From NCBI GenBank assembly GCA_001664505.1, contig CP011806.1, positions 1,541,402-1,579,526 on the forward strand: a stretch of 38,125 bases of DNA, in the 5' to 3' direction. Origin of the DNA: Acidobacteria bacterium Mor1. Its GTDB lineage: Bacteria > Acidobacteriota > Polarisedimenticolia > Polarisedimenticolales > Polarisedimenticolaceae. The notes under the pieces are model-generated. The model searched no databases. It worked only from the letters and a program-made list of their open reading frames with translations, and was not told the DNA's origin. Position 1 is the first letter of the stretch; each line of letters opens with the position of its first letter. Below, piece after piece: positions 1 to 37,345 of the stretch. The position numbers and the translations under genes were made by a program.

Positions 1-3000
1 CCGGCGCCGTCCCCGTCTTCATCGGCCTGGGCCGGATCGTAGATCGTCGGGCAGGTGTCCTGATTGCCGCAGAGGCCGTCGCCGTCGACGTCATCGATGG
101 TCGATCCGGGGCAGGGATCGCAGAAGTCTCCGATACCGTCGCCGTCGATGTCGGGCTGCAGCGGATCGGCGATGGCGGGACAGCCGTCACAGGCGTCGCC
201 GACACCGTCGCCGTCACTGTCGAGCTGATCGGGGTTGGGCGTATCCCAGGAACAGTTGTCGCACGAATAGCCCCAGCCGTCGCCATCCCGGTCGGTCGGG
301 TTCCCCTCGTACTCGGGGCAGCGGTCGCAGACGTCACCCCACTCGTCACCGTCCAGGTTGCTCTGGTCCGGGTTCGGCAGCTCGGGACAATTGTCAACGT
401 CGGCGCACAACCCGTCGCCGTCGGCATCGTCCCGGGCGTCCCGCGGACAGGGATCCTCGTCGTCGGGTTGACCGTCGCCGTCGTCGTCGTCATCGCAGGC
501 GTTGGCCCGCCCATCGCCGTCGGGATCCCCTTGCTCAGGGTCAGGGGTATCAGGGCAGCCGTCACACGCGTCGCCGACCCCGTCGCCGTCACGGTCCTCC
601 TGGTCCGGGTTGGAAACCTCGACACAGTTGTCGCAGTCCCGGCCCCAACCGTCGTGATCGACGTCGGAGCCGCCATAAGCCACATCGGGGCAGGTATCGC
701 ATACGTCCCCGAGGTTGTCCGCGTCCCGATCCTCCTGGCCGGGGTTGGCGTCCCTCGGGCAGTTGTCCTCATCGTCGCAGAAACCGTCGCCGTCCCGGTC
801 GACATGCTCCTCAGCGCGGGGACAAGGGTCGTCGTCGTTCTCGATGCCGTCCCCGTCGATGTCCGGGTCGCAGAGATCTCCGATGCCGTCCCGGTCCAGG
901 TCCTCGAGGCGCCCTTCGAAGGACAGGTCCGGGCATGGATCGCAAGCATCGCCCCAACCGTCACCGTCCCGGTCGGCCTGATCGAGATTGGCGTGAGAGG
1001 CGCAGTTGTCGCAGCTGTTGCCGATTCCGTCGTGATCCCAGTCGAACTGCTCCGGCTCGGCGAGGTCCGGGCAGAGCTCGCAGGCATCGCCGAAGCCGTC
1101 GCCGTCCCCGTCGAGCTGCCCGGGGTCCGGATCCCAAGGACAGATGTCGCAGGCCCCGCCGATGCCGTCGCCGTCGAAGTCCGCCTGCCCGGGGTTGGGG
1201 GAAACGGCGCAGTTGTCGAAGGACGCGCAGAAACCTTCCTCGGGAAAGATCCCGAGGGCCACGGCGGCGCTCTGCAGACAGGTGGTGACGATCTCGGCCG
1301 AACGCGGGGCAATGCCTCCAGGGGGCGCGAAGGCCATTCCCTCGGCCATGGCGCAAAAGGCCTCGGCGGCGGTGTACGTGTCTCCGGCTTCGAAGGCCTG
1401 GCGGGCGCGCTGCACACGCTCCTGAAGCGCCACCCGATGAGCCGGATCGTCGACCGACGCCTTGTCGACGTGGTTTTCCAAATCCTCGAAGCCGTGGCAA
1501 GGAAAGACGTAGTAGGCCAGCATCGCGGTACCCGGCTTGCCCGGATGCGGATCCAGATCGGTGTCCTGGCGCCACTGGCCCAGGTTGAAGCTGAACAGCC
1601 GCTCGTCCCCTTGCGGGCGGATACCGCCATAGGATCCGGCGGTCCAACTGGTGCGCACGGTTTCCCCGGTGCGGCTGTCGTGGTAGTGAAGCCGGTAGTC
1701 CTCTTCACCGCAACCGGGTCCGGTGAACTGTTGCCAGACATACGCCGGCCCGAACTGTCGCTCGTAGAGGGACGTCAATTCGAACGGGAGACTGATCCGT
1801 CCACCGTTGATCGCCTCGAGAGCGCCGGTGCGAGTGTCCACGATCCCCAGGTTTTGGTAGCCGCAGCCGTCGGCGCAACGGTACGCGAACGTCAGCTGCT
1901 TACCGTCGAAGCGCACGGGAACCCCGTGGGCGTCGAGCGAGCGTTGCGCGCCTGCATCGATGTCATACAGTCCGAGACGCCCATCCCGGTCGGAGTAGGC
2001 CATCGCCCCGGCCTGGAGAAACGGCCAGGCCCAGGAATCGAAACAACGGGTCTGCCCGCCGGGGAAGGTTGCGCAGGCGGCCCGGCCGTCGAAGGCGGTC
2101 GCCGCGTCTCCGTCCGTGCGCATCGACCCCGCGAAGCCGTAGTACCAGAACCAGAAGTCCTCGACTTCCATCCCCGCGAACTGCGGCCCCTCGGGCAGGT
2201 GGTCCGCCCCGGGAAGCCGGATCCAGTAGAGTTCGGACCAGACGTACCAGAGGAACCAGTAGCCGTCGGAGCGCACCTGGCGCTTGTAGAACACCACGTT
2301 ATCGCCCAGGACCGGCTCGTCGGCGCCGATACCGGTGTTGAACTCCTCTCCGCTGATGGTGTCGAGAACCCGCAATCTCCAGGGCGCATCTCCTTCGCCA
2401 CCGGCGACCGAACCGGCACCGTAGTAGGCGATCCGTCCTCCGCGAATATCTACATCCCGGCCGGCGATCGGCTCCGACGTCTCTCCGGTGGAAATCCGGT
2501 GCCAGCGGAAGGTGTCCCCCTCTTCCCAGGCCACGAGATCGCCGTCGGCAACGAAGTCCTCGGAGATTCCCAGGTAGCGCACCTCCTCGGTGCCGATGCG
2601 GTAGAGGGTGACCCTTCCCGAGTCGTAGAAGGAGACCCGGCCGTTACCGTCAAAGTCGACTTCTACCTGATTCTCCTCCTGGAGAAACACGACGTAGTCC
2701 CCATCTCCGACGAGCTTCTGGCAGGTGTCCCCCATGCCGATGCAGGAAGGAACACGGGTATTGACCAGACTGCCCGTCGCTTCGGGTGCGCAACTCTCGG
2801 GTTGGCTCAGGGGTCCGGACTTCGCCTCTGCCGGAGGCGGGCTCCGATCGCTGCGGCGCAGCTCAATCGGAGGCACGAGGCGGCGCCGGTTGCCTTCGTC
2901 GTCGGTGAAGGCGACGAGCAGGTTCGGCACCCCCAGATGTCCGGGCACCGGCTCGGCAAACCGGACTTCGAGAACCAGCTCCGCACCGGGCTCGAGGCTC

Positions 3001-3533
3001 TCCCCCGCCCCGGCCTCGAGAGGCAGGGCGCGTCCTTCCAGGTCCCAGCGATCCGGCCCCGGCTCCGGCGTCATCACCTGCCGGGTGGCCTCGGTGAACG
3101 TCGCAACCCAGCGCAGCCGGGAGATCGAGAGGTCACGGATCGGCCGAGCCGAGCGGTTGCTCAGGATCAACCGCGCGCGGCCCTCGCGGCCCGGCGTCGA
3201 CGGGACCGGGTCTTCGGCCACCACCACGAGTTCGTCACCCCCGTCGTCGAGGCCCCGGAGGATGTCGTCGTAGAGGGCCAGGACGTCGCTTCGATCGGCG
3301 CCGGGGCGGACCGCAATGCGGACCCCCTCACCCTGGAGGCGCTCGAGAAACGGGGCCGCGAGGCCTTCGTCGGCCAGCAGCGGCGGGCTCAGAGATACCG
3401 GTCCGGCCGAATCGTTGATCCCGCGGTCGCGCCACTTTTCGAGGGTTGCCTCGAGGGAATCCGCCGCGGAGGCCGCGGTGACACACGCCAGCCAAACCAG
3501 CGCGAAGATGAGTCGCGGCGCGATTCGCGGCAT
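1..3533 (-). CDS. Secreted thrombospondin type 3 repeat protein (3' end beyond window)
   Basis: A reading frame of about 1177 codons runs leftward from ATG 3533 and leaves the window at base 1 without a stop. A GGGGGG Shine-Dalgarno stretch lies just upstream of the ATG. Residues 1-22 form a signal peptide (MPRIAPRLIFALVWLACV, then an AASA-type cleavage site). Residues about 25-250 look like a beta-rich domain, and about 280-620 carry propeller-like segments of the type DGDLVAWEEG. From about residue 767 there are some 17 thrombospondin type 3 units (pattern NPDQxDxDGDGxGDxCD with CP linkers), which in known families bind calcium and form a stiff stalk. This suggests a long calcium-dependent cell-surface or secreted protein. 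The C-terminus, where any sorting signal would be, is not visible. The long plus-strand frame over this region is only the complement of the repeats. Confidence 0.9.
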   Translation of the reverse strand, partial: MPRIAPRLIFALVWLACVTAASAADSLEATLEKWRDRGINDSAGPVSLSPPLLADEGLAAPFLERLQGEGVRIAVRPGADRSDVLALYDDILRGLDDGGDELVVVAEDPVPSTPGREGRARLILSNRSARPIRDLSISRLRWVATFTEATRQVMTPEPGPDRWDLEGRALPLEAGAGESLEPGAELVLEVRFAEPVPGHLGVPNLLVAFTDDEGNRRRLVPPIELRRSDRSPPPAEAKSGPLSQPESCAPEATGSLVNTRVPSCIGMGDTCQKLVGDGDYVVFLQEENQVEVDFDGNGRVSFYDSGRVTLYRIGTEEVRYLGISEDFVADGDLVAWEEGDTFRWHRISTGETSEPIAGRDVDIRGGRIAYYGAGSVAGGEGDAPWRLRVLDTISGEEFNTGIGADEPVLGDNVVFYKRQVRSDGYWFLWYVWSELYWIRLPGADHLPEGPQFAGMEVEDFWFWYYGFAGSMRTDGDAATAFDGRAACATFPGGQTRCFDSWAWPFLQAGAMAYSDRDGRLGLYDIDAGAQRSLDAHGVPVRFDGKQLTFAYRCADGCGYQNLGIVDTRTGALEAINGGRISLPFELTSLYERQFGPAYVWQQFTGPGCGEEDYRLHYHDSRTGETVRTSWTAGSYGGIRPQGDERLFSFNLGQWRQDTDLDPHPGKPGTAMLAYYVFPCHGFEDLENHVDKASVDDPAHRVALQERVQRARQAFEAGDTYTAAEAFCAMAEGMAFAPPGGIAPRSAEIVTTCLQSAAVALGIFPEEGFCASFDNCAVSPNPGQADFDGDGIGGACDICPWDPDPGQLDGDGDGFGDACELCPDLAEPEQFDWDHDGIGNSCDNCASHANLDQADRDGDGWGDACDPCPDLSFEGRLEDLDRDGIGDLCDPDIDGDGIENDDDPCPRAEEHVDRDGDGFCDDEDNCPRDANPGQEDRDADNLGDVCDTCPDVAYGGSDVDHDGWGRDCDNCVEVSNPDQEDRDGDGVGDACDGCPDTPDPEQGDPDGDGRANACDDDDDGDGQPDDEDPCPRDARDDADGDGLCADVDNCPELPNPDQSNLDGDEWGDVCDRCPEYEGNPTDRDGDGWGYSCDNCSWDTPNPDQLDSDGDGVGDACDGCPAIADPLQPDIDGDGIGDFCDPCPGSTIDDVDGDGLCGNQDTCPTIYDPAQADEDGDGA

Positions 3534-29770: not shown

Positions 29771-29777
29771 CGACACG

Positions 29778-29802
29778 GGGCGCCCGGACCTTCCGGGCGC
29801 CC
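29778..29802. terminator. Bidirectional hairpin terminator
   Basis: An 11-base-pair stem GGGCGCCCGGA/TCCGGGCGCCC with a three-base loop, between convergent genes ending at 29770 (+) and 29809 (-). Confidence 0.75.
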
Positions 29803-29808
29803 ACCGAA

Positions 29809-32211
29809 CTACGGTCGCAGGAAGATATCGAAGGCGGCCCAGTGGCGCGGCTCGGGGTAGCGTTCGGCCACGCTGCGCCGCGCCCGGGCCAGCGCTTCGG
29901 TCGGTTCCACGCCCTGCTCCAGCTCCCGATGGAACGCGATCATCAAACGCGCCGTCGATGCGTCGTCGGCCGTCCAGTGGCTGACCACCACGCCCCTGGC
30001 CCCGGCTACGAGGAACGCCCAACCGAGGCTGATCACCCCCTGCCCCGGCACCGCTTCCCCCTCGCCGGTGCGACAGGCCGAGAGTACGACCAGCGCGTTG
30101 TCGAGGGGCAAGGACAACACCTGCTCTCCGTTCAGCCGCTCTCCACTCGAGAGCACGATCCCGCTTCGCCGGGGATCTCTGGCCGAAGCCAGCGCGTGAG
30201 TCGAGAAATGCAGCACGTCGTAGCCGGAATAGCCCCGGCGATCGAGCTGCGCGGCGGTCAGATCTTCACCGGAGATCAGGTCTGCCCGCTTGCCCCAGAT
30301 ATCGGTGAGCCCGTTCAACTCGAACGCCGACCAGGGGAGGGTCTCGAAGCCGCCCTGGGGGAAGACCGGATCTCCGGCCAGGAGCACCCGTCGAGGCGAG
30401 AGAGAAGCGGCAGGAGGGATCGAAGGTAGCGGCGTGAACGCGACCTGGAGAGACTCGCCGAGATACTCCCCTTCGCCCGCAGCGCCCGCCGGCAAGGCCG
30501 CGAAGGGCACCCGCGCGATCTCACGATCGGGAACGATGACCATGCGCCGCGACTCCGCCAGCCAGGAGTTCACCGGTTCGAGCAACGCCTTGCGGAGGAA
30601 AGCGCCGTCGGTTCCGCCCGCGGGAACTGCACCGGTGTCACCTGCCCTGCCGATCAGGCCGCTACGGAAGGACTCGACCCGATCACGCAGGACACGAGCG
30701 CCGGGTAGCAGCGCCACACGCGACTCCCCTGTTCGGATCGCCAGCAACAGACCCCGGTCTTCGCCGATCAGGTAGCTGAGCAACAGCTCACCCGGCGCGA
30801 GCCCTCCGGCGAGCTTGGCCAGATTGGCCGCCGGCAGCGGGTCGCTCGATGCGGAGGTGACCCGCAGCGCCCTGGATTGAGCCGCTTCCATGAGCTCGAG
30901 GACGCGCTCAGATCCGTCGCCGGCGCCGCTGCCTTCGATCGCCGCGCACAGATCGACGTAGGGATCCGCCCGATCGCGAAGGAAGTACAGACCTTCGTCG
31001 AGCGGGTCCAGGGTTTCCTGCTGGGCCTCGAAAGGCGCGATCGCCTGCTCCAGAACCTGGATCGCGGCGTCGTAGCGCCCTGCTTCCAGATGGACCTTTC
31101 CCAGAATGCGCCGGGCTTCCCAGGCGTTCTCGGCGGAGCCTGCAGCGAGACTCCGTTCCACCGCGTCCCGCGCCAGCGTGGTTGCCCGCTCGAGTTCCCC
31201 TCCGCGCCAGGCGGCATCGGCCTCGAAGGTGAGCGCCGTCAACGCGACCAGCTTGTTGGAGCCGGCCCCCTCCGCCGCCTTGTTGAATCGCTCGGCCGCC
31301 TCGGCGTGCTCTGCCCGGGCAAGGGCGACGCGGCCCAGGCCGAACTCCCGCAGATAGGCCGAGCGGCCCGCGGGATCGATCTTCAGGTACCAACTCTCGG
31401 CCTCGTCCACCTCATCCCGGGACATAGCGACGACGCCGAGATAGTTGGCGGCAGATTCGGCACGGGGATGCCCCGCCGCAACGGACTGCTCGTAGGCTTC
31501 GGTCAGGTAGCGGCTCGCCTCGCCGGCGTTACCCAGGTGGGCCGCCACCACGCCCCGGTTGTGGGCGATGCTCGGCAGCCAGGCGGTGTTGCCGACGGCT
31601 CTGGCATGTTGCTCCGCCTGCCCCAGATGGAACAGCGCGTCGGAGTACTCCCCTCCGTTGCGCAGCAACCAGGCGAAGCTGTTGTGCACCCGCGCCAACA
31701 GGTCCCGGCGCTCCGCCCGTTCCGCTGCCGCAAGCGATGCCTCGTAGAGTTCTCGCGACGCCTCGAGGTCGGCAGCCAGGCCGAGCCCTCGAGCGACCTG
31801 ATAGGCACAGCGGGAGATTCCTACCGGCTCATCGTCGCGCCGGGCGCGATCGAGGCAGCTCCGATAGTGATCGGCAGCTTCGTCCCGGTTCTTCTCGAAA
31901 GCTGCGACCTTGCCCTGGGCCCAAGCGGTCTGCCAGATCTCGCCGCAGCGTTCGGCGGCCGCGGCGAACACCTGCCGAACTCGCTCGGGTTCATGCTTGG
32001 AGAGTTCGAGAAAACCGCCGAGCCAGATCGAGTCTTCGGCCGGACAGTCCCCGAGGGCCGCCACCCGCTCTTCGAGGGTCGGCACGGCTTCGGCCCCTGC
32101 CAGGGCTTCGACCGGCGGCTTTGAATCAGGGTTCGGCGAGCCGGACGTACACGCGACCGCCCACAACATGAGCGGCAGCATCCAAGCCCGGGCCGAGATG
32201 GTGGCCCTCAA
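29809..32211 (-). CDS. TPR-CHAT caspase-like lipoprotein
   Basis: About 800 residues from a probable TTG start at 32211, 11 bases after the stop of the upstream gene. ATG 32181 is the alternative; neither has a clear Shine-Dalgarno, so translational coupling is likely. The N-terminus is a lipoprotein signal with lipobox AVAC. Residues about 50-420 are tetratricopeptide repeats (for example NTAWLPSIAHNRGVVAAHLG). The C-terminal CHAT domain carries the caspase-like dyad: His672 in LHFSTHALAS and Cys713 in VVLSACRTGEGE. It ends with the usual GWAFLVAGARGVVVSHW segment. CHAT proteins are cysteine proteases of the separase/caspase clan; TPRs bind partners. As the last gene of the sigma-factor operon, it could cut the neighbouring membrane or secreted protein. 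Function inferred. Confidence 0.88.
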   Translation of the reverse strand: MRATISARAWMLPLMLWAVACTSGSPNPDSKPPVEALAGAEAVPTLEERVAALGDCPAEDSIWLGGFLELSKHEPERVRQVFAAAAERCGEIWQTAWAQGKVAAFEKNRDEAADHYRSCLDRARRDDEPVGISRCAYQVARGLGLAADLEASRELYEASLAAAERAERRDLLARVHNSFAWLLRNGGEYSDALFHLGQAEQHARAVGNTAWLPSIAHNRGVVAAHLGNAGEASRYLTEAYEQSVAAGHPRAESAANYLGVVAMSRDEVDEAESWYLKIDPAGRSAYLREFGLGRVALARAEHAEAAERFNKAAEGAGSNKLVALTALTFEADAAWRGGELERATTLARDAVERSLAAGSAENAWEARRILGKVHLEAGRYDAAIQVLEQAIAPFEAQQETLDPLDEGLYFLRDRADPYVDLCAAIEGSGAGDGSERVLELMEAAQSRALRVTSASSDPLPAANLAKLAGGLAPGELLLSYLIGEDRGLLLAIRTGESRVALLPGARVLRDRVESFRSGLIGRAGDTGAVPAGGTDGAFLRKALLEPVNSWLAESRRMVIVPDREIARVPFAALPAGAAGEGEYLGESLQVAFTPLPSIPPAASLSPRRVLLAGDPVFPQGGFETLPWSAFELNGLTDIWGKRADLISGEDLTAAQLDRRGYSGYDVLHFSTHALASARDPRRSGIVLSSGERLNGEQVLSLPLDNALVVLSACRTGEGEAVPGQGVISLGWAFLVAGARGVVVSHWTADDASTARLMIAFHRELEQGVEPTEALARARRSVAERYPEPRHWAAFDIFLRP

Positions 32212-32222
32212 CCGGGCCGGGA

Positions 32223-33857
32223 TCAGGGAGGCGGCGGATTCTGATTCGCCGGCGTGACCAGGTACCGAGTCTCGAAGCCCTCGGTGTCGTGCACCGTGGT
32301 GCTCTGACCGGGTGTGGTTTCCTCGAGTTCCTGCCACTCGCCCTGCTCTCCGTTGCCGGTGCCGCCCATCACGATGGTCAGGCCGAAACGGGTGCCGTCC
32401 CCCATCGCCATCGCCGCGTTCGCCGCGGCGATCGGGGCGAACACCCCGCCGCCGGGGCATTCGCACGCCGGATCGGGCGCGACGGAATCACAGTCGCAGT
32501 AGCACGGACAGTTCGGATCGTCGGAGCCACTGCCCTGACAGACGCACCATACACGCTGATTGGCCGTCGCCGGGCAGAGACCGGGATCCCACTCGAGAAA
32601 GAGCACATCCGGCTCGCAGATATCGCCGCCGGTGCAGCAGGCATCGCTCCCCAGCTGCTTGGGACAGACATCCGCCTCGATGAAGCAGATCAGCCCGACC
32701 GCATCCACCGTCCGCGGTCCGGCGTCGCAGGGCTCTCCCATGGCGCAGAGCGGAATGGTGATCAGCGCCCCGTCGCGGTCCAGACGATGGATGTTGTGCC
32801 CTGAGTTGTCGGCGAAGAACAGGCTGCCCCAGCGGTCCGCTTCCAGCAGGGCCATGTCGACGACCTTGCCCGGAATCGTGATCGGCGTGTCGTACTCGCA
32901 GGTGGTCGGGTCGATCTCCCGCACCTGGCCCGCCGCCGCATCGTAGGCCAGCACGGTGTGGGAGTTGGGCCCGGGGCCGGCGGTCTCGACGGCGGTGAGG
33001 TTGCCGCCGAAGGTGCATTCCCGGCCGTTTTCCAGGTTGCGCAGGCTTCCGGCGGTTCCCTGGGCCAGGACCGGGAACTCGCGGAGCGGAGGCGCGGCCA
33101 CCTCGAGAGACTCGCGCTGTTCGAAGTTGTCGGGCTCCAGACGGTGGACCCGCTCGACGGCGGGCGGCCCCAGATCGAAAGGAATGCCGACCCGGTAGAC
33201 CTCCCAGGCCTCGCCGGCGTCGTCCCGCACGGTGATCCAGCCACGCACAGCCCAGGGGCCGAAGGGAGCATGGGACACCTTGACCGAGATGCCGTCGGAG
33301 TCGGGAATGCTGAGCAGGCCGGTGGCGATCAGCGGCGAACAGTCGCCGCCGGTAACCAGGCACTGCTGATCGAGCACGATGTAGCGCGCGCGCTCGGGGC
33401 TCGGCGGATTGGTGCTGGCCGGCTGGGTCGCCGCGACGAACAACAGCGAGTGCGCCCGCCCGGATCCGATCAGGTACTCCTGGGGTCCGGAAGCATCGAT
33501 GCCCCGCAGGCGAAGCCCGGGGGTTCCCAGGAGGTTGCCCAGGTTGACGCCGCGAACCAGCGAGCGGGTGGCCCGTTCGTAGACGAACAACCAGTCGGTC
33601 TGACTGCTGACGAACACGTGATCGGTGCCGAATCTCGGACGTTGAGAAACGGCGACACCCCATCCGGGCTCGGGGTTGCCGTCCAGATCCGCATCGGGCA
33701 GGGCCACCGTGACATCGATGGCGTTGTCGACGGCGTCGATGACGGTGAAGCTTCCGTTCTCGTTGGCGACCCAGACCTCGTCGGACTGGGCGAAGGCGGC
33801 CGCGGCCCCGAGCAGCAAGAACAGGCCGGCGAAGATGTATTTCCTGGTGTGATTCAT
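32223..33857 (-). CDS. Secreted beta-propeller-like protein with cysteine-rich C-terminal segment
   Basis: A 544-residue protein with a signal peptide (MNHTRKYIFAGLFLLLGAAAA, cleaved near AFAQ). Its ATG overlaps the stop of the anti-sigma-like gene as ATGA (33854-33857), strong evidence of translational coupling. Residues about 25-380 contain repeating beta strands with short YVTN/NHL-like signatures (EVWVANENGSFTVID, DRWGSLFFADNSGHNIHRL). From about residue 385 to 480 there are some 16 cysteines in clusters (VWCVCQGSG, NCPCYCDCD, ACECPGG), probably a disulfide knot. The protein ends in NPPPP. No family was assigned. As an extracellular partner of the CHAT lipoprotein it may be ligand sensor or protease target. 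Confidence 0.75.
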   Translation of the reverse strand: MNHTRKYIFAGLFLLLGAAAAFAQSDEVWVANENGSFTVIDAVDNAIDVTVALPDADLDGNPEPGWGVAVSQRPRFGTDHVFVSSQTDWLFVYERATRSLVRGVNLGNLLGTPGLRLRGIDASGPQEYLIGSGRAHSLLFVAATQPASTNPPSPERARYIVLDQQCLVTGGDCSPLIATGLLSIPDSDGISVKVSHAPFGPWAVRGWITVRDDAGEAWEVYRVGIPFDLGPPAVERVHRLEPDNFEQRESLEVAAPPLREFPVLAQGTAGSLRNLENGRECTFGGNLTAVETAGPGPNSHTVLAYDAAAGQVREIDPTTCEYDTPITIPGKVVDMALLEADRWGSLFFADNSGHNIHRLDRDGALITIPLCAMGEPCDAGPRTVDAVGLICFIEADVCPKQLGSDACCTGGDICEPDVLFLEWDPGLCPATANQRVWCVCQGSGSDDPNCPCYCDCDSVAPDPACECPGGGVFAPIAAANAAMAMGDGTRFGLTIVMGGTGNGEQGEWQELEETTPGQSTTVHDTEGFETRYLVTPANQNPPPP

Positions 33858-34753
33858 GGTCTGGTCTCCGGCCCACCGGGTACCAACGCCAGCGAGCGAC
33901 GGAACAACGACTTGCCGTCGAGAGGCGACCCCGGCTTGCGCGCACGGATCGCGATCTGCAGGTCCCCGTCTGCGGGAAGCAGCTGTGGGAACATCGGAAC
34001 CGAAACGGTGAGCCGGCCGTCCCGCTCGACGAAGTCCGACGGCGTCAGGTCGGACGACGTGAGTTCGCGGTCGCCGGCGAAGAGGACGAGTTCGAGCGCG
34101 AGCCCATCCTCGAGGTCTTGGGGAATCAGGTCGGTGCGCAATTCGAGCAGCAGCGCCTCCGCAGCGGCAGGCAGGGAGAGAGGTGCGGCGGTGGCCGCGT
34201 CGCCCCGCACCGCCCGTTCACTCTCCACGATCACCCGCTGAGGCACGGCAAAGGGGGAAAGCGCGGGCCCGTCGGGCGTGTCGCGCAGCGCCAGGGGAAC
34301 CAGCACCGCCAGGACCAACAGATAGGCGAGTGCCGGCGCCGGGGCGAGCAGCGTGGCCCGCAGGGTCTGCCAGATACCCGCCCAGACCGACTCGCGCGGC
34401 GCCGAGATCTCCGCTGCCGGCGCGGCGGCGATAGAGGCATCTACCTCGCGCAGGATCTCGAGAGCTTCCCGGCTGAGTTGCGAGCGCTCCAACCCTCGCT
34501 CCACCCGGGCGCGCAACTCCGGATCCAGAGAGGTGCGGTCTTCGGCGTAGGCCAATAGCAGGTCGGGATGGACGTCGGCATCGAGTCGTCCCGGGTCGGT
34601 CTTCGCCGAGGCGGTAATGCCGCGCAGGTCTTCGAGGGCGGCCCGATACTCCGGGCTATCGCGCAGACGCTCCTCGACCGACCGCCTCTCCTCGGCGCTC
34701 AGGGTGTCGTTGACGTACCACGGCAGGGCGTCGATCGGGTCATCCTTCGACAT
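33854..34753 (-). CDS. Membrane anti-sigma-factor-like protein with two zinc-less ZAS modules
   Basis: A 299-residue protein from ATG 34753, with a GGGGGAA stretch upstream. Residues 9-45 (LPWYVNDTLSAEERRSVEER) follow the ZAS/zf-HC2 anti-sigma pattern, but the zinc ligands H-x3-C-x2-C are replaced by Arg29, Ser33 and Tyr36. Residues 62-102 (HPDLLLAYAED, then RVERGLERSQLS) are a second copy with Gly87, Ser91 and Ser94 at those positions. One membrane helix follows (about 138-157, ALAYLLVLAVLVPLAL), then a beta-rich extracytoplasmic domain of about 140 residues. Placed 13 bases after the sigma-factor gene, it is most likely its membrane-bound anti-sigma factor. Zinc-free binding is inferred. 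Confidence 0.78.
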   Translation of the reverse strand: MSKDDPIDALPWYVNDTLSAEERRSVEERLRDSPEYRAALEDLRGITASAKTDPGRLDADVHPDLLLAYAEDRTSLDPELRARVERGLERSQLSREALEILREVDASIAAAPAAEISAPRESVWAGIWQTLRATLLAPAPALAYLLVLAVLVPLALRDTPDGPALSPFAVPQRVIVESERAVRGDAATAAPLSLPAAAEALLLELRTDLIPQDLEDGLALELVLFAGDRELTSSDLTPSDFVERDGRLTVSVPMFPQLLPADGDLQIAIRARKPGSPLDGKSLFRRSLALVPGGPETRP

Positions 34754-34766
34754 CAGCTTCCCCCGC

Positions 34767-35339
34767 TCATGCGGCGCCTTCCGAGTGCTCCCGGTAGATG
34801 TCCCGGGCGCGCTCCAGGCAGCGATGCACCCGGACACGTACGTTGCCCGAATGAATGCCCAGACGTTGGCCGGTCTCCTCGGCGGAGAGCCCTTCGTAGT
34901 AGACCAGCGTCCACAGTTCGCGACACGCTTCGGACAGACGCTGGAAGATGTAGGCGGTCAGCCAGAACTGTTCTTGCCGCTCCAGCCGGTCGTGGGGATC
35001 GGGATCGGCGCCGGCGGCATCGAACTCCGATTCCGGCTCCTCGTGATCCTCGCGCCGGCGCGCCCGGTAGTACGCCTTGATGCACTGGTTCTTCGCCGTG
35101 TTGTAGACGAAGCGCTGAAACGCCTGGGCGTCCCGCACCTTGTCCCGGCGCACCAGGTCCAGCAGGATCAACAACACGTCCTGCACCATCCCCTCGGCGT
35201 CGGGCAGGCGCCAACGCCCGCCGTGAACCACCGCAGAGACCCAGCCGCGCACCGTGTTGACCGCCTCGTCGCTCCCCAGGCGAAACTGTTCCAGCGTCGC
35301 GGGAATCGATTCGGGATGGGTCGCCGTTCCGCTCATCAT
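34767..35339 (-). CDS. ECF-type sigma-70 family RNA polymerase sigma factor
   Basis: 190 residues from ATG 35339 (the in-frame ATG 35399 would add 20 residues; neither start has an ideal ribosome-binding site). Region 2 is seen at about residues 25-95 (PDAEGMVQDVLLILLDLVRR, then AFQRFVYNTAKNQCIKAYYR). Region 4 is at about 125-180 (LSEACRELWTLVYYEGLSAE, with GIHSGNVRVRVHRCLERAR as the recognition helix). Region 3 is absent, as in extracytoplasmic function sigma factors. It is the first gene of a four-gene operon with the anti-sigma-like, propeller and TPR-CHAT genes, a setting typical of a signal-responsive regulon that also controls itself. Confidence 0.92.
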   Translation of the reverse strand: MMSGTATHPESIPATLEQFRLGSDEAVNTVRGWVSAVVHGGRWRLPDAEGMVQDVLLILLDLVRRDKVRDAQAFQRFVYNTAKNQCIKAYYRARRREDHEEPESEFDAAGADPDPHDRLERQEQFWLTAYIFQRLSEACRELWTLVYYEGLSAEETGQRLGIHSGNVRVRVHRCLERARDIYREHSEGAA

Positions 35340-35797
35340 CGATCGCTTTCGACTCGCTCCAGGAACCGCCGGCTCTTCCAGCCGGCAAAAGGCGGTCATT
35401 GTTCCACAGGTCCTCGGCGCGGGCTGCCGCTCGGCGGAACTGCTGCGGATCCGGTGCTCGGTCCATGCCGTCTCCTATACGGCCCTTCCACTCCCGGCGC
35501 AGCCGGCGCGGGGCTCGGGGCCTCATCGGACAGGTCCCTGCCGGCCGAAAACCGTTACAGCCACCGCCGAGAAGCCCAGGAGTGGCTAGACGACGTCCCT
35601 CCTCGATCGGGGCCACCGGAAGGGATTTCGCCTGATTTCCGGCCAATAACCGCGATTTCAGCCCCATCAGCCGGCCGGACCGGACCGCTCAGCCCGCCTC
35701 CCCGCCCGTTCGCCCGGCGGCTGGACGTCGAGACCCATCCGCGCCCTATACTCGGCAGGAAACGAACCATCGAGAAGCCACAAGTAAGGAGGCCACC
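35340..35797. other. Divergent intergenic region between the sigma-factor operon and the TIGR04222-like gene
   Basis: About 460 bases with no credible gene. It holds a TATACT -10 candidate for the plus-strand gene (35747-35752) and a minus-strand TATAGG (35474-35479). A small minus frame starts at ATG 35466 after AGGAG and runs out of frame into the sigma gene. I found no clear GGAAC/GTC-type ECF promoter. Confidence 0.4.
35747..35752 (+). promoter_or_regulatory. Candidate -10 box of the TIGR04222-like gene
   Basis: TATACT, 45 bases before the ATG at 35798, with TGGACG as a possible -35 at a long 19-base spacing. This is the same -10 and spacing seen before the TSP3-repeat gene at 3533. Confidence 0.4.
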
Positions 35798-37345
35798 ATG
35801 AACCCTCCCACCCAAGGCCCGCGGCCGGAATGGCCTGCGATCGCCCAGGCTCTGTGGCGGCGCCTCAGCGCTCACCCGCTGGACGACCCGGAATCGAGCC
35901 TGCCCTTCTCGCGACGACTGGCGCGGGACAACGGCTGGAGCGAGGCCTACGCCGCACGGGTCATCGAGGAGTACCGGCGCTTCTGTTTCCTCGCCTGCGT
36001 CGCAGGCCAGGAGGTCACGCCGTCGGACCAGGTGGATCAAGCCTGGCACCTGCACCTGCTCTACACCCGGGACTACTGGGGGCCGTTCTGTCGCGATGTT
36101 CTGCGGCAAGAACTGCACCACGGGCCGACTCGAGGCGGACGCCACGAGGGAACCCGTTTCGGCGATCAGTACGCGTCGACACGCCACGCCTACCTGAGGT
36201 GGTTCGGCCATCACCCGCCGGCGGACATCTGGCCGGGAGCACGAGAGCGGTTCACCCGGGACACCCGCTGGGCCAGGATCAACCGCGACGACTACTGGCT
36301 CGTGCCGAAGCTTCGCCGCGGGCGCGACCGATCGACCCCGGTGTTGCAGCGATTCGCCGCACTGTTCTCGGTGGCGGGTGTTTCGCTGGCGCTGAGTTCC
36401 GTCCGCGCGGCGACCCGCGAGCTTGTCGATGAGCGGCCGACGACCCTGGAAGCGGCGGGCTACAACCCGCTTGCCCTGGCGGGTCAGCCGTTTCTCGTCT
36501 TCTTCGGCGTCACCGGTGCACTTCTTGCCGCGTTCTGCATCGTCTCGATCTACCGCCGCTCCCGGTCGCTCGGCCGCGGGCGCGGCCTGACCGCGGCGAC
36601 GAAGGATCTCGACGTCACCGCCTGGATCTGTGGCGGCCCCCAGCGGGTGCAGCTCACCGCCCTGGCGCGGCTGTCCGACGGTGGCCACGTCACGGTCTCC
36701 GGCAAGGGAGACCTAGCCGCTCAGGAGGCTCCCGGCAAGGGTGCGCCCCCCATCGATCGAGCGCTCTACGAAGCGATCGCCGACACCGACGCCAAGGCCG
36801 GCGCTCAACTTCTCGCCCACCCCCCGCTGGCGGTACGGACCGAACTGGAGGCAATTCAGCGACGGGCCGAGGAGCAGGACCTGCTGCTTTCGAGAGATGA
36901 GCTCCCGTGGGTCGAGATCGCCGTTGCGGTGCTGGCGCCGCTGGGGCTGGCCGGCGCGCGCATCGCCGCCGCGATTCCGGCGGGCCGCCCCTTCGGCTAC
37001 CTCGCCCTGTTGACCCTGGTGCTGATCGTCGTCGGATTGCTCGGGACCGTTCGGGCGCGAACCCGCTTCACCGAAGGGGGCAACCGGAGACGAATGGATG
37101 CCTGGACCGAGGCCGAGGCACTCCGCGGCCGGCCGGAACGCTGGGAGCTCAGCGGCTCCGACGTGCTGCTGGGCACTGCCGTACTGGGCGGTACATTCCT
37201 CGCCGGCACCGCCCTGGCCGACGTTCAGGAGGCGGCAAAGCGCCACGGCGGCGACGCCGGAGCAGCCTACGGAGCCGGCGGCGACGGCGGCGGCGACGGT
37301 GGCGGAGGCTGTGGTGGCGGCTGCGGAGGCGGCTGCGGCGGCTAG
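35798..37345 (+). CDS. TIGR04222-like membrane protein with Gly/Cys-rich tail
   Basis: A 515-residue protein preceded by AAGGAGG. Residues about 10-150 are soluble and contain VDQAWHLHLLYTRDYWGPFC (about 78-97), the core motif of the glycine-rich-domain (DUF1399/GRDP) family. A membrane helix occurs at about 228-250 (PFLVFFGVTGALLAAFCIVS), then a cytosolic or lumenal domain (DLDVTAWICGGPQRVQLTAL, residues 268-345) of the TIGR04222 type. Two more helices follow (about 370-415), and the protein ends in a low-complexity tail GGGGCGGGCGGGCGG. Such Gly/Cys tails are a recurring but unexplained feature of this family; modification, metal binding or crosslinking are possible. It is divergent from the sigma/CHAT operon and may belong to its regulon. 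Confidence 0.75.
   Translation: MNPPTQGPRPEWPAIAQALWRRLSAHPLDDPESSLPFSRRLARDNGWSEAYAARVIEEYRRFCFLACVAGQEVTPSDQVDQAWHLHLLYTRDYWGPFCRDVLRQELHHGPTRGGRHEGTRFGDQYASTRHAYLRWFGHHPPADIWPGARERFTRDTRWARINRDDYWLVPKLRRGRDRSTPVLQRFAALFSVAGVSLALSSVRAATRELVDERPTTLEAAGYNPLALAGQPFLVFFGVTGALLAAFCIVSIYRRSRSLGRGRGLTAATKDLDVTAWICGGPQRVQLTALARLSDGGHVTVSGKGDLAAQEAPGKGAPPIDRALYEAIADTDAKAGAQLLAHPPLAVRTELEAIQRRAEEQDLLLSRDELPWVEIAVAVLAPLGLAGARIAAAIPAGRPFGYLALLTLVLIVVGLLGTVRARTRFTEGGNRRRMDAWTEAEALRGRPERWELSGSDVLLGTAVLGGTFLAGTALADVQEAAKRHGGDAGAAYGAGGDGGGDGGGGCGGGCGGGCGG
37273..37342 (+). repeat. GGC/GGT trinucleotide-rich low-complexity tract
   Basis: About 70 bases of GGN codons with periodic TGC/TGT, encoding the Gly/Cys tail. 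Such tracts can change length by slippage. Confidence 0.6.

Follow-up and report, generated by a model that had tools for sequence, protein, structure and literature searches.

A candidate envelope-signalling operon of Acidobacteria bacterium Mor1 joins an ECF sigma/anti-sigma pair to a predicted exported TPR-CHAT protease and a secreted beta-propeller

CHAT proteases are known chiefly from cytosolic immune or cell-death settings. In Acidobacteria bacterium Mor1, a TPR-CHAT protease with predicted export signals is encoded in one operon with an ECF sigma factor, a membrane anti-sigma factor and a secreted beta-propeller, and the operon appears to depart from known ECF signalling as a new form, for which a mechanism can be proposed. 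Our proposal, held at slightly under an even chance, is that the operon is an envelope-signalling module in which CHAT proteolysis would lead to loss of the anti-sigma factor and release of the sigma factor. Computation shows gene linkage, export signals, an intact catalytic dyad and protein topology, and it shows that CHAT co-evolves with the propeller and sigma with anti-sigma.

The window (the whole stretch of 38,125 nucleotides analysed, from contig CP011806.1) carries the four genes on its minus strand, and direct reading of the open reading frames gives the transcription order sigma, anti-sigma, propeller, TPR-CHAT. Successive genes are separated by 13 bases, a 4-base overlap and then 11 bases (CHAT read from TTG) or 41 bases (CHAT read from ATG). 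These short distances fit a single transcript, as does a promoter scan that found no sigma70-type promoter within the four-gene stretch, and the one-strand operon of the initial annotation is upheld. The features are as follows.

34767..35339, minus strand: ECF-type sigma factor, 190 aa (PF04545, 2.7e-08; TIGR02937, 1e-19; matches to ECF sigma factors in the PDB)
33854..34753, minus strand: membrane anti-sigma factor, 299 aa (partial PF13490, 0.018, and NF052375, 1.8e-05; RslA 3hug, 0.0022; AlphaFold2 model; internal repeat, z=4.7)
34424..34738, minus strand: tandem ZAS-derived anti-sigma domain, residues 6-110 (model helices; self-alignment)
34283..34342, minus strand: predicted transmembrane helix of the anti-sigma factor, residues 138-157 (hydropathy and model)
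33878..34246, minus strand: predicted periplasmic beta-sandwich of the anti-sigma factor, residues 170-292 (AlphaFold2 model; weak Foldseek matches)
32223..33857, minus strand: secreted YVTN beta-propeller with a Cys-rich C-terminal tail, 544 aa (signal peptide by sequence; AlphaFold2; Foldseek; 1l0q, 6.9e-15)
29809..32211, minus strand: predicted exported TPR-CHAT protease, probable lipoprotein, 800 aa from TTG (PF12770, 3e-51; TPR_12, 1e-13; lipobox-type N-termini of relatives)
29809..32181, minus strand: TPR-CHAT protein from the alternative ATG start, 790 aa
31036..31914, minus strand: TPR region of the CHAT protein, about residues 100-392 (Pfam TPR; PDB profile search returning TPR proteins)
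29830..30597, minus strand: CHAT domain, residues 539-794 (PF12770; Csx29/craspase structure profile matches, best 7e-09)
30196..30198, minus strand: codon of catalytic His672 (invariant in alignments; 20/20 aligned CHAT domains of the genome)
30073..30075, minus strand: codon of catalytic Cys713 (invariant in alignments; 20/20 aligned CHAT domains of the genome)
35532..35558, minus strand: ECF-promoter-like motif GTAACGGTTTTCGGCCGGCAGGGACCT upstream of the sigma gene (shared GTAAY-N16/17-SGAC; post hoc)
29777..29802, no strand: inverted repeat GGGGCGCCCGGACCTTCCGGGCGCCC between convergent gene ends (read directly)

The inverted repeat is a possible terminator of the operon; it has no T-run and was not picked up by a terminator scan. 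Adjoining the operon, a divergent gene (35798-37345) encodes a 515-aa membrane protein with a Gly/Cys-rich repeat tail at its C-terminus (GGGGCGGGCGG). At the far end of the window (3-3533), a large secreted protein has by eye many D-rich, calcium-binding-like repeats resembling thrombospondin type 3.

Regions 2 and 4 of an ECF sigma factor are both found in the first protein, region 4 above its cut-off and region 2 below it (20.4 bits against 24). The second protein combines an anti-sigma domain with one transmembrane helix. Models of the zf-HC2 family match it in part only, and a profile search finds RslA of M. tuberculosis and no Csx30 chain among the matches to E 1. By profile its N-terminal domain is thus that of the class I ZAS anti-sigma factor RslA, but here the small helical domain is duplicated in tandem (model helices 6-14/20-32/34-52 and 63-71/78-90/92-110), and the zinc ligands appear to have been lost. 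The H-x3-C-x2-C motif is absent from the window protein and kept in its orthologue at locus L063 (HLEQCASC) as well as at L015 and L024, so the protein was rightly called zinc-less. This motif is not known to be obligatory among class I membrane anti-sigma factors. The AlphaFold2 model is of moderate quality (pTM 0.42), and Foldseek returned for it no match below E 1e-3, only weak Ig-like or phage-baseplate-like ones. Ectodomains of these anti-sigma factors have unrelated folds, a modelled beta-sandwich with clade 1 sigma factors and TPR with clade 2 (L021). The genome also encodes an RseP-like site-2 protease (PF02163, 3.5e-64).

The third protein has no family match in Pfam or NCBIfam. Its initial assignment as a propeller is nevertheless borne out by the profile match to the YVTN propeller 1l0q, by an AlphaFold2 model (pLDDT largely 80-94 across residues 27-390; the Cys-rich tail is poorly modelled) and by Foldseek, which returns propellers for this model; fold and YVTN-type repeats identify it as a YVTN beta-propeller. 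Its export, also proposed earlier, agrees with the signal seen across relatives. Propeller relatives were found in 13 of 41 genomes of the class. Three of them lie without an adjoining CHAT gene (L102:8543-10177, L103:16566-18158, L104:3099-4676), so the propeller family also occurs alone.

The fourth protein has the PF12770 fold with the His/Cys dyad of a CHAT peptidase. His672 and Cys713 (800-aa numbering), named as the catalytic pair from the sequence at the outset, are the conserved CHAT dyad, which is intact in every CHAT domain aligned (20 of this genome and 12 of the relatives' set). The nearest solved relatives of the CHAT domain are craspase Csx29-type proteins, with separase weaker; profile matches for the TPR and CHAT regions include 8d9f-h, 7x8a and 7y9x and denote domain resemblance only. 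Signal peptides and transmembrane helices were called from hydropathy and reading by eye. Export signals of the CHAT proteins are general in three module types described below, either lipoprotein-like or a signal peptide with a C-terminal transmembrane helix. The window protein is probably a lipoprotein; of this earlier claim the export part gains from the relatives, whose lipoboxes are clearer, but the protein's own lipobox (WAVAC) is weak.

The Mor1 genome (5.99 Mb, Acidobacteria subgroup 22) has been reported to hold 90 sigma genes, which were discussed as iron cell-surface signalling (PMC5006271). In its single contig of about 5.985 Mb we counted 21 CHAT genes and 85 sigma region-4 matches. 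Fourteen of the 21 CHAT genes have a sigma match no more than 5 kb away, against 2.8 expected and a maximum of 12 in 20,000 random draws. Reading of the neighbourhoods, in individual stretches of sequence, gave at least 15 modules of sigma factor, transmembrane anti-sigma factor and CHAT protease. They fall into three broad types: type A, that of the window, has a lipoprotein-like CHAT and a propeller; type B has a CHAT bearing a signal peptide and a C-terminal transmembrane helix; type C has a lipoprotein-like CHAT in the order sigma, CHAT, anti-sigma. Across 15 modules the distances among CHAT, sigma and anti-sigma proteins correlate (r 0.66-0.72; CHAT-SIG r=0.69, CHAT-ANTI r=0.66; Mantel p 0.0002). 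In four type-C modules the next gene encodes a secreted subtilase-like protein (PF00082) with conserved D/H/S motifs, and this arrangement is found once more in another family of the order.

L016:2732-12125, L027:6348-12153, L028:5647-11218 and L029:6037-11792: sigma, CHAT, anti-sigma and subtilase modules of this genome
L113:7038-12587: module of the same composition from a different family of this order

The subtilase in these sister modules strengthens the proteolysis theme. Beside type-C modules lie two large, mutually related secreted proteins (L016:2732-6058, L028:12975-16301), the one at L028 with a beta-propeller (PF10282). At L014, L018, L019, L022 and L023, a CHAT protein with signal peptide and C-terminal transmembrane helix accompanies a small sigma factor and a single-pass anti-sigma factor, and some of these anti-sigma factors have H-x3-C-x2-C. 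A profile search of the genome contigs with P0004 gave no confirmed loci.

Relatives were sought with a profile built on the four type-A CHAT proteins, and genes in relatives were called by our own script. Close type-A CHAT relatives were found in the same class only, of which 41 genomes were covered. A propeller lies within a few genes of CHAT in 16 of 17 type-A loci from 12 genomes, which places the four-gene association far from chance; a sigma gene is linked in 13 of the 16 loci with enough contig, and so is an anti-sigma gene where the contig allows. The exact order of the window recurs only at L063, in another genus, and at the paralogue L024. The order is propeller, CHAT, sigma at L021, L060 and L070, while at L066, L068 and L100 the sigma and anti-sigma genes are divergent from propeller and CHAT; at L062, L064 and L067 no sigma gene of this kind is near CHAT, and the propeller is kept at L062 and L067. 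The conserved neighbourhood expected by the initial annotation thus holds for propeller with CHAT and for their linkage to an ECF sigma/anti-sigma pair, but hardly for gene order. Among more distant CHAT loci of the phylum, sigma genes are near in several cases and some N-termini are lipobox-like. L072, L074 and L077, elsewhere in the phylum, combine sigma and CHAT with a protein of 250-285 aa of unassigned function; L072 and L077 also carry a transmembrane anti-sigma factor, and two of the three CHAT genes start lipobox-like.

Mirror-tree correlations point to the same pairs. They are high for CHAT with propeller (r=0.87, 15 loci) and for sigma with anti-sigma (r=0.88, type-A loci), and low between the pairs within the type-A family (CHAT-SIG r=0.38; CHAT-ANTI r=0.21, Mantel p=0.058). 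Propeller and CHAT accordingly form one tight unit and sigma and anti-sigma a second, and co-evolution marks the propeller as the protein with which CHAT pairs directly. Co-evolution of CHAT with the anti-sigma factor, which had been anticipated, is weak inside this family, and the ectodomain folds differ. The trees are poorly resolved. A strong claim of module shuffling was reduced to a few replacements, since sigma clades 1 and 2 need just one change on the CHAT tree (five when the third clade and losses are counted).

A promoter-like motif, GTAAY-N16/17-SGAC, is present in 6 of 11 independent upstream regions of clade-1 sigma genes against 0.006 expected per 300 nt, a count made post hoc in the same sequences in which the motif was found. 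Besides the window site, it is present on the propeller side of L068 and, in the sister species L100, on both sides, including before the divergent propeller-CHAT operon. In an unbiased scan with L100 removed, the best shared gapped word reached 4, as did shuffles, and was not significant. The strict motif has two other sites in the rest of the genome, both within coding sequence, so no further regulon was found. The shared motif suggests autoregulation by the sigma factor, with the protease included, and we hold this to be likely. Clade-2 operons have the order propeller, CHAT, sigma, anti-sigma and start from a sigma70-like sequence; their regulation may therefore be different.

In the mechanism that we propose, a single-pass anti-sigma factor with its tandem zinc-less domain would hold the ECF sigma factor at the inner membrane. 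Outside the cytoplasm, the lipoprotein TPR-CHAT would pair with the secreted propeller, which may be its substrate, a ligand-binding partner or an inhibitor. A surface or envelope cue acting on this pair would switch on CHAT proteolysis, the anti-sigma factor would be lost, either directly or by way of further proteases of the envelope together with the RseP homologue, and the freed sigma factor would transcribe its own operon and renew protease and propeller. We infer that CHAT physically contacts a partner and cleaves a target, and we likewise infer the cue and the sequence of steps. CHAT might cut the ectodomain of the anti-sigma factor directly, but the sequences do not favour this, since the ectodomains vary from locus to locus and CHAT is weakly coupled to the anti-sigma factor; an action of CHAT on the propeller fits the sequences better.

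With an exported, intact protease beside a membrane anti-sigma factor in many parallel modules, a proteolytic link to sigma control would be the simplest reading, and we advance it tentatively. In its favour we count the 15 modules with correlated distances, the general export, the 20/20 dyads, the CHAT-propeller correlation, the subtilase sister module, the RseP homologue, the promoter-like motif and the craspase precedent; against it, the weak type-A CHAT-ANTI correlation, the unrelated ectodomain folds, the loci L062, L064 and L067 without sigma, the sigma70-like start in clade 2 and the counting of the motif on its discovery sequences. Nearly as likely is that CHAT and propeller are output: another signal at the anti-sigma ectodomain would free the sigma factor, the anti-sigma factor would be no CHAT substrate, and the induced surface protease and propeller would have their targets among proteins of the envelope or outside the cell. 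The motif before divergent propeller-CHAT operons, the joining of the same propeller-CHAT pair with three sigma/anti-sigma lineages, the unrelated ectodomains and the pairs without sigma (L062, L067) all suit such an arrangement, but sigma and CHAT co-vary over the 15 modules of the genome, and in clade 2 the sigma gene follows propeller and CHAT in an operon that starts from a sigma70-like sequence, which would be odd for pure output.

Two further explanations carry much less weight. The operon might serve conflict or cell death, with CHAT as a caspase-like executioner that predators, phage or kin set off and with the sigma factor for its induction. CHAT and caspase proteases are common in conflict systems, some with a neighbouring ECF sigma factor (PMC8195603), but the proteases here bear export signals, the many diverged parallel copies, each with a transmembrane anti-sigma factor, resemble signalling circuits, and PADLOC matches none of the four proteins; we consider this improbable, and a label of anti-phage defence was set aside on the PADLOC result. 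Slighter still is the chance that the genes are co-inherited neighbours with no functional dependence, as variable gene order and members missing at some loci might suggest. Against it, the propeller is linked in 16/17 loci and sigma in 13/16, across 12 genomes, and one genome holds paralogous modules.

Returning to the proteolytic switch, its parts can be compared with known systems. Type III-E craspase (Cas7-11/Csx29/Csx30/CASP-sigma) uses a related CHAT protease to lift the block by an anti-sigma-like inhibitor (PMC10028731). There too a TPR-CHAT protease is genetically tied to an ECF sigma factor and an inhibitor, and the nearest solved CHAT domains are Csx29-type, but craspase needs a RAMP effector and works in the cytosol, whereas the operon's CHAT is predicted to be exported, its inhibitor is a transmembrane ZAS-type anti-sigma factor resembling RslA, and it adds a secreted propeller and has no RNA-guided part. 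The craspase parallel drawn initially thus survives as an analogy between related CHAT domains. No PF03787 match to a Cas7-11-type RAMP was found in the whole genome (controls positive), in line with the reported lack of a CRISPR component, and craspase membership is ruled out by this and the predicted export. Like RseA/DegS/RseP, the operon has a cytosolic ECF sigma factor, a single-pass anti-sigma factor, an exported protease candidate and an RseP homologue, but an operon-encoded caspase-fold CHAT with putative cleavage takes the place of the HtrA-family protease. The EACC2/TRADD-N caspase systems with ECF sigma factors, described as conflict systems by Kaur et al. 2021 (PMC8195603), likewise unite a caspase-superfamily protease, a TPR protein and an ECF sigma factor in one neighbourhood; EACC2 and variable effector domains, which are theirs, were not seen here, and the operon's protease is predicted to be exported. 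As the initial annotation had supposed, we met no description of exported CHAT proteases with ECF/anti-sigma pairs in the literature searched, subscription papers lying mostly outside it.

These operons hint that extracytoplasmic relatives of caspases help to control gene expression. Families of exported, apparently active CHAT proteases linked with ECF sigma factors would extend the caspase superfamily into envelope signalling. A stronger form, in which the exported CHAT proteases are dedicated ECF sigma activators in about 15 parallel circuits, each with its own CHAT and a type-specific secreted partner (propeller or subtilase), we regard as rather unlikely; if true, it would set apart a class of envelope signalling from DegS-type and CRISPR-guided systems. 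In Mor1, whose sigma genes were earlier discussed as iron cell-surface signalling (PMC5006271), at least 15 sigma genes adjoin CHAT proteases instead, and exported CHAT/ECF modules would offer a testable account of the dozens of ECF sigma factors in some bacteria.
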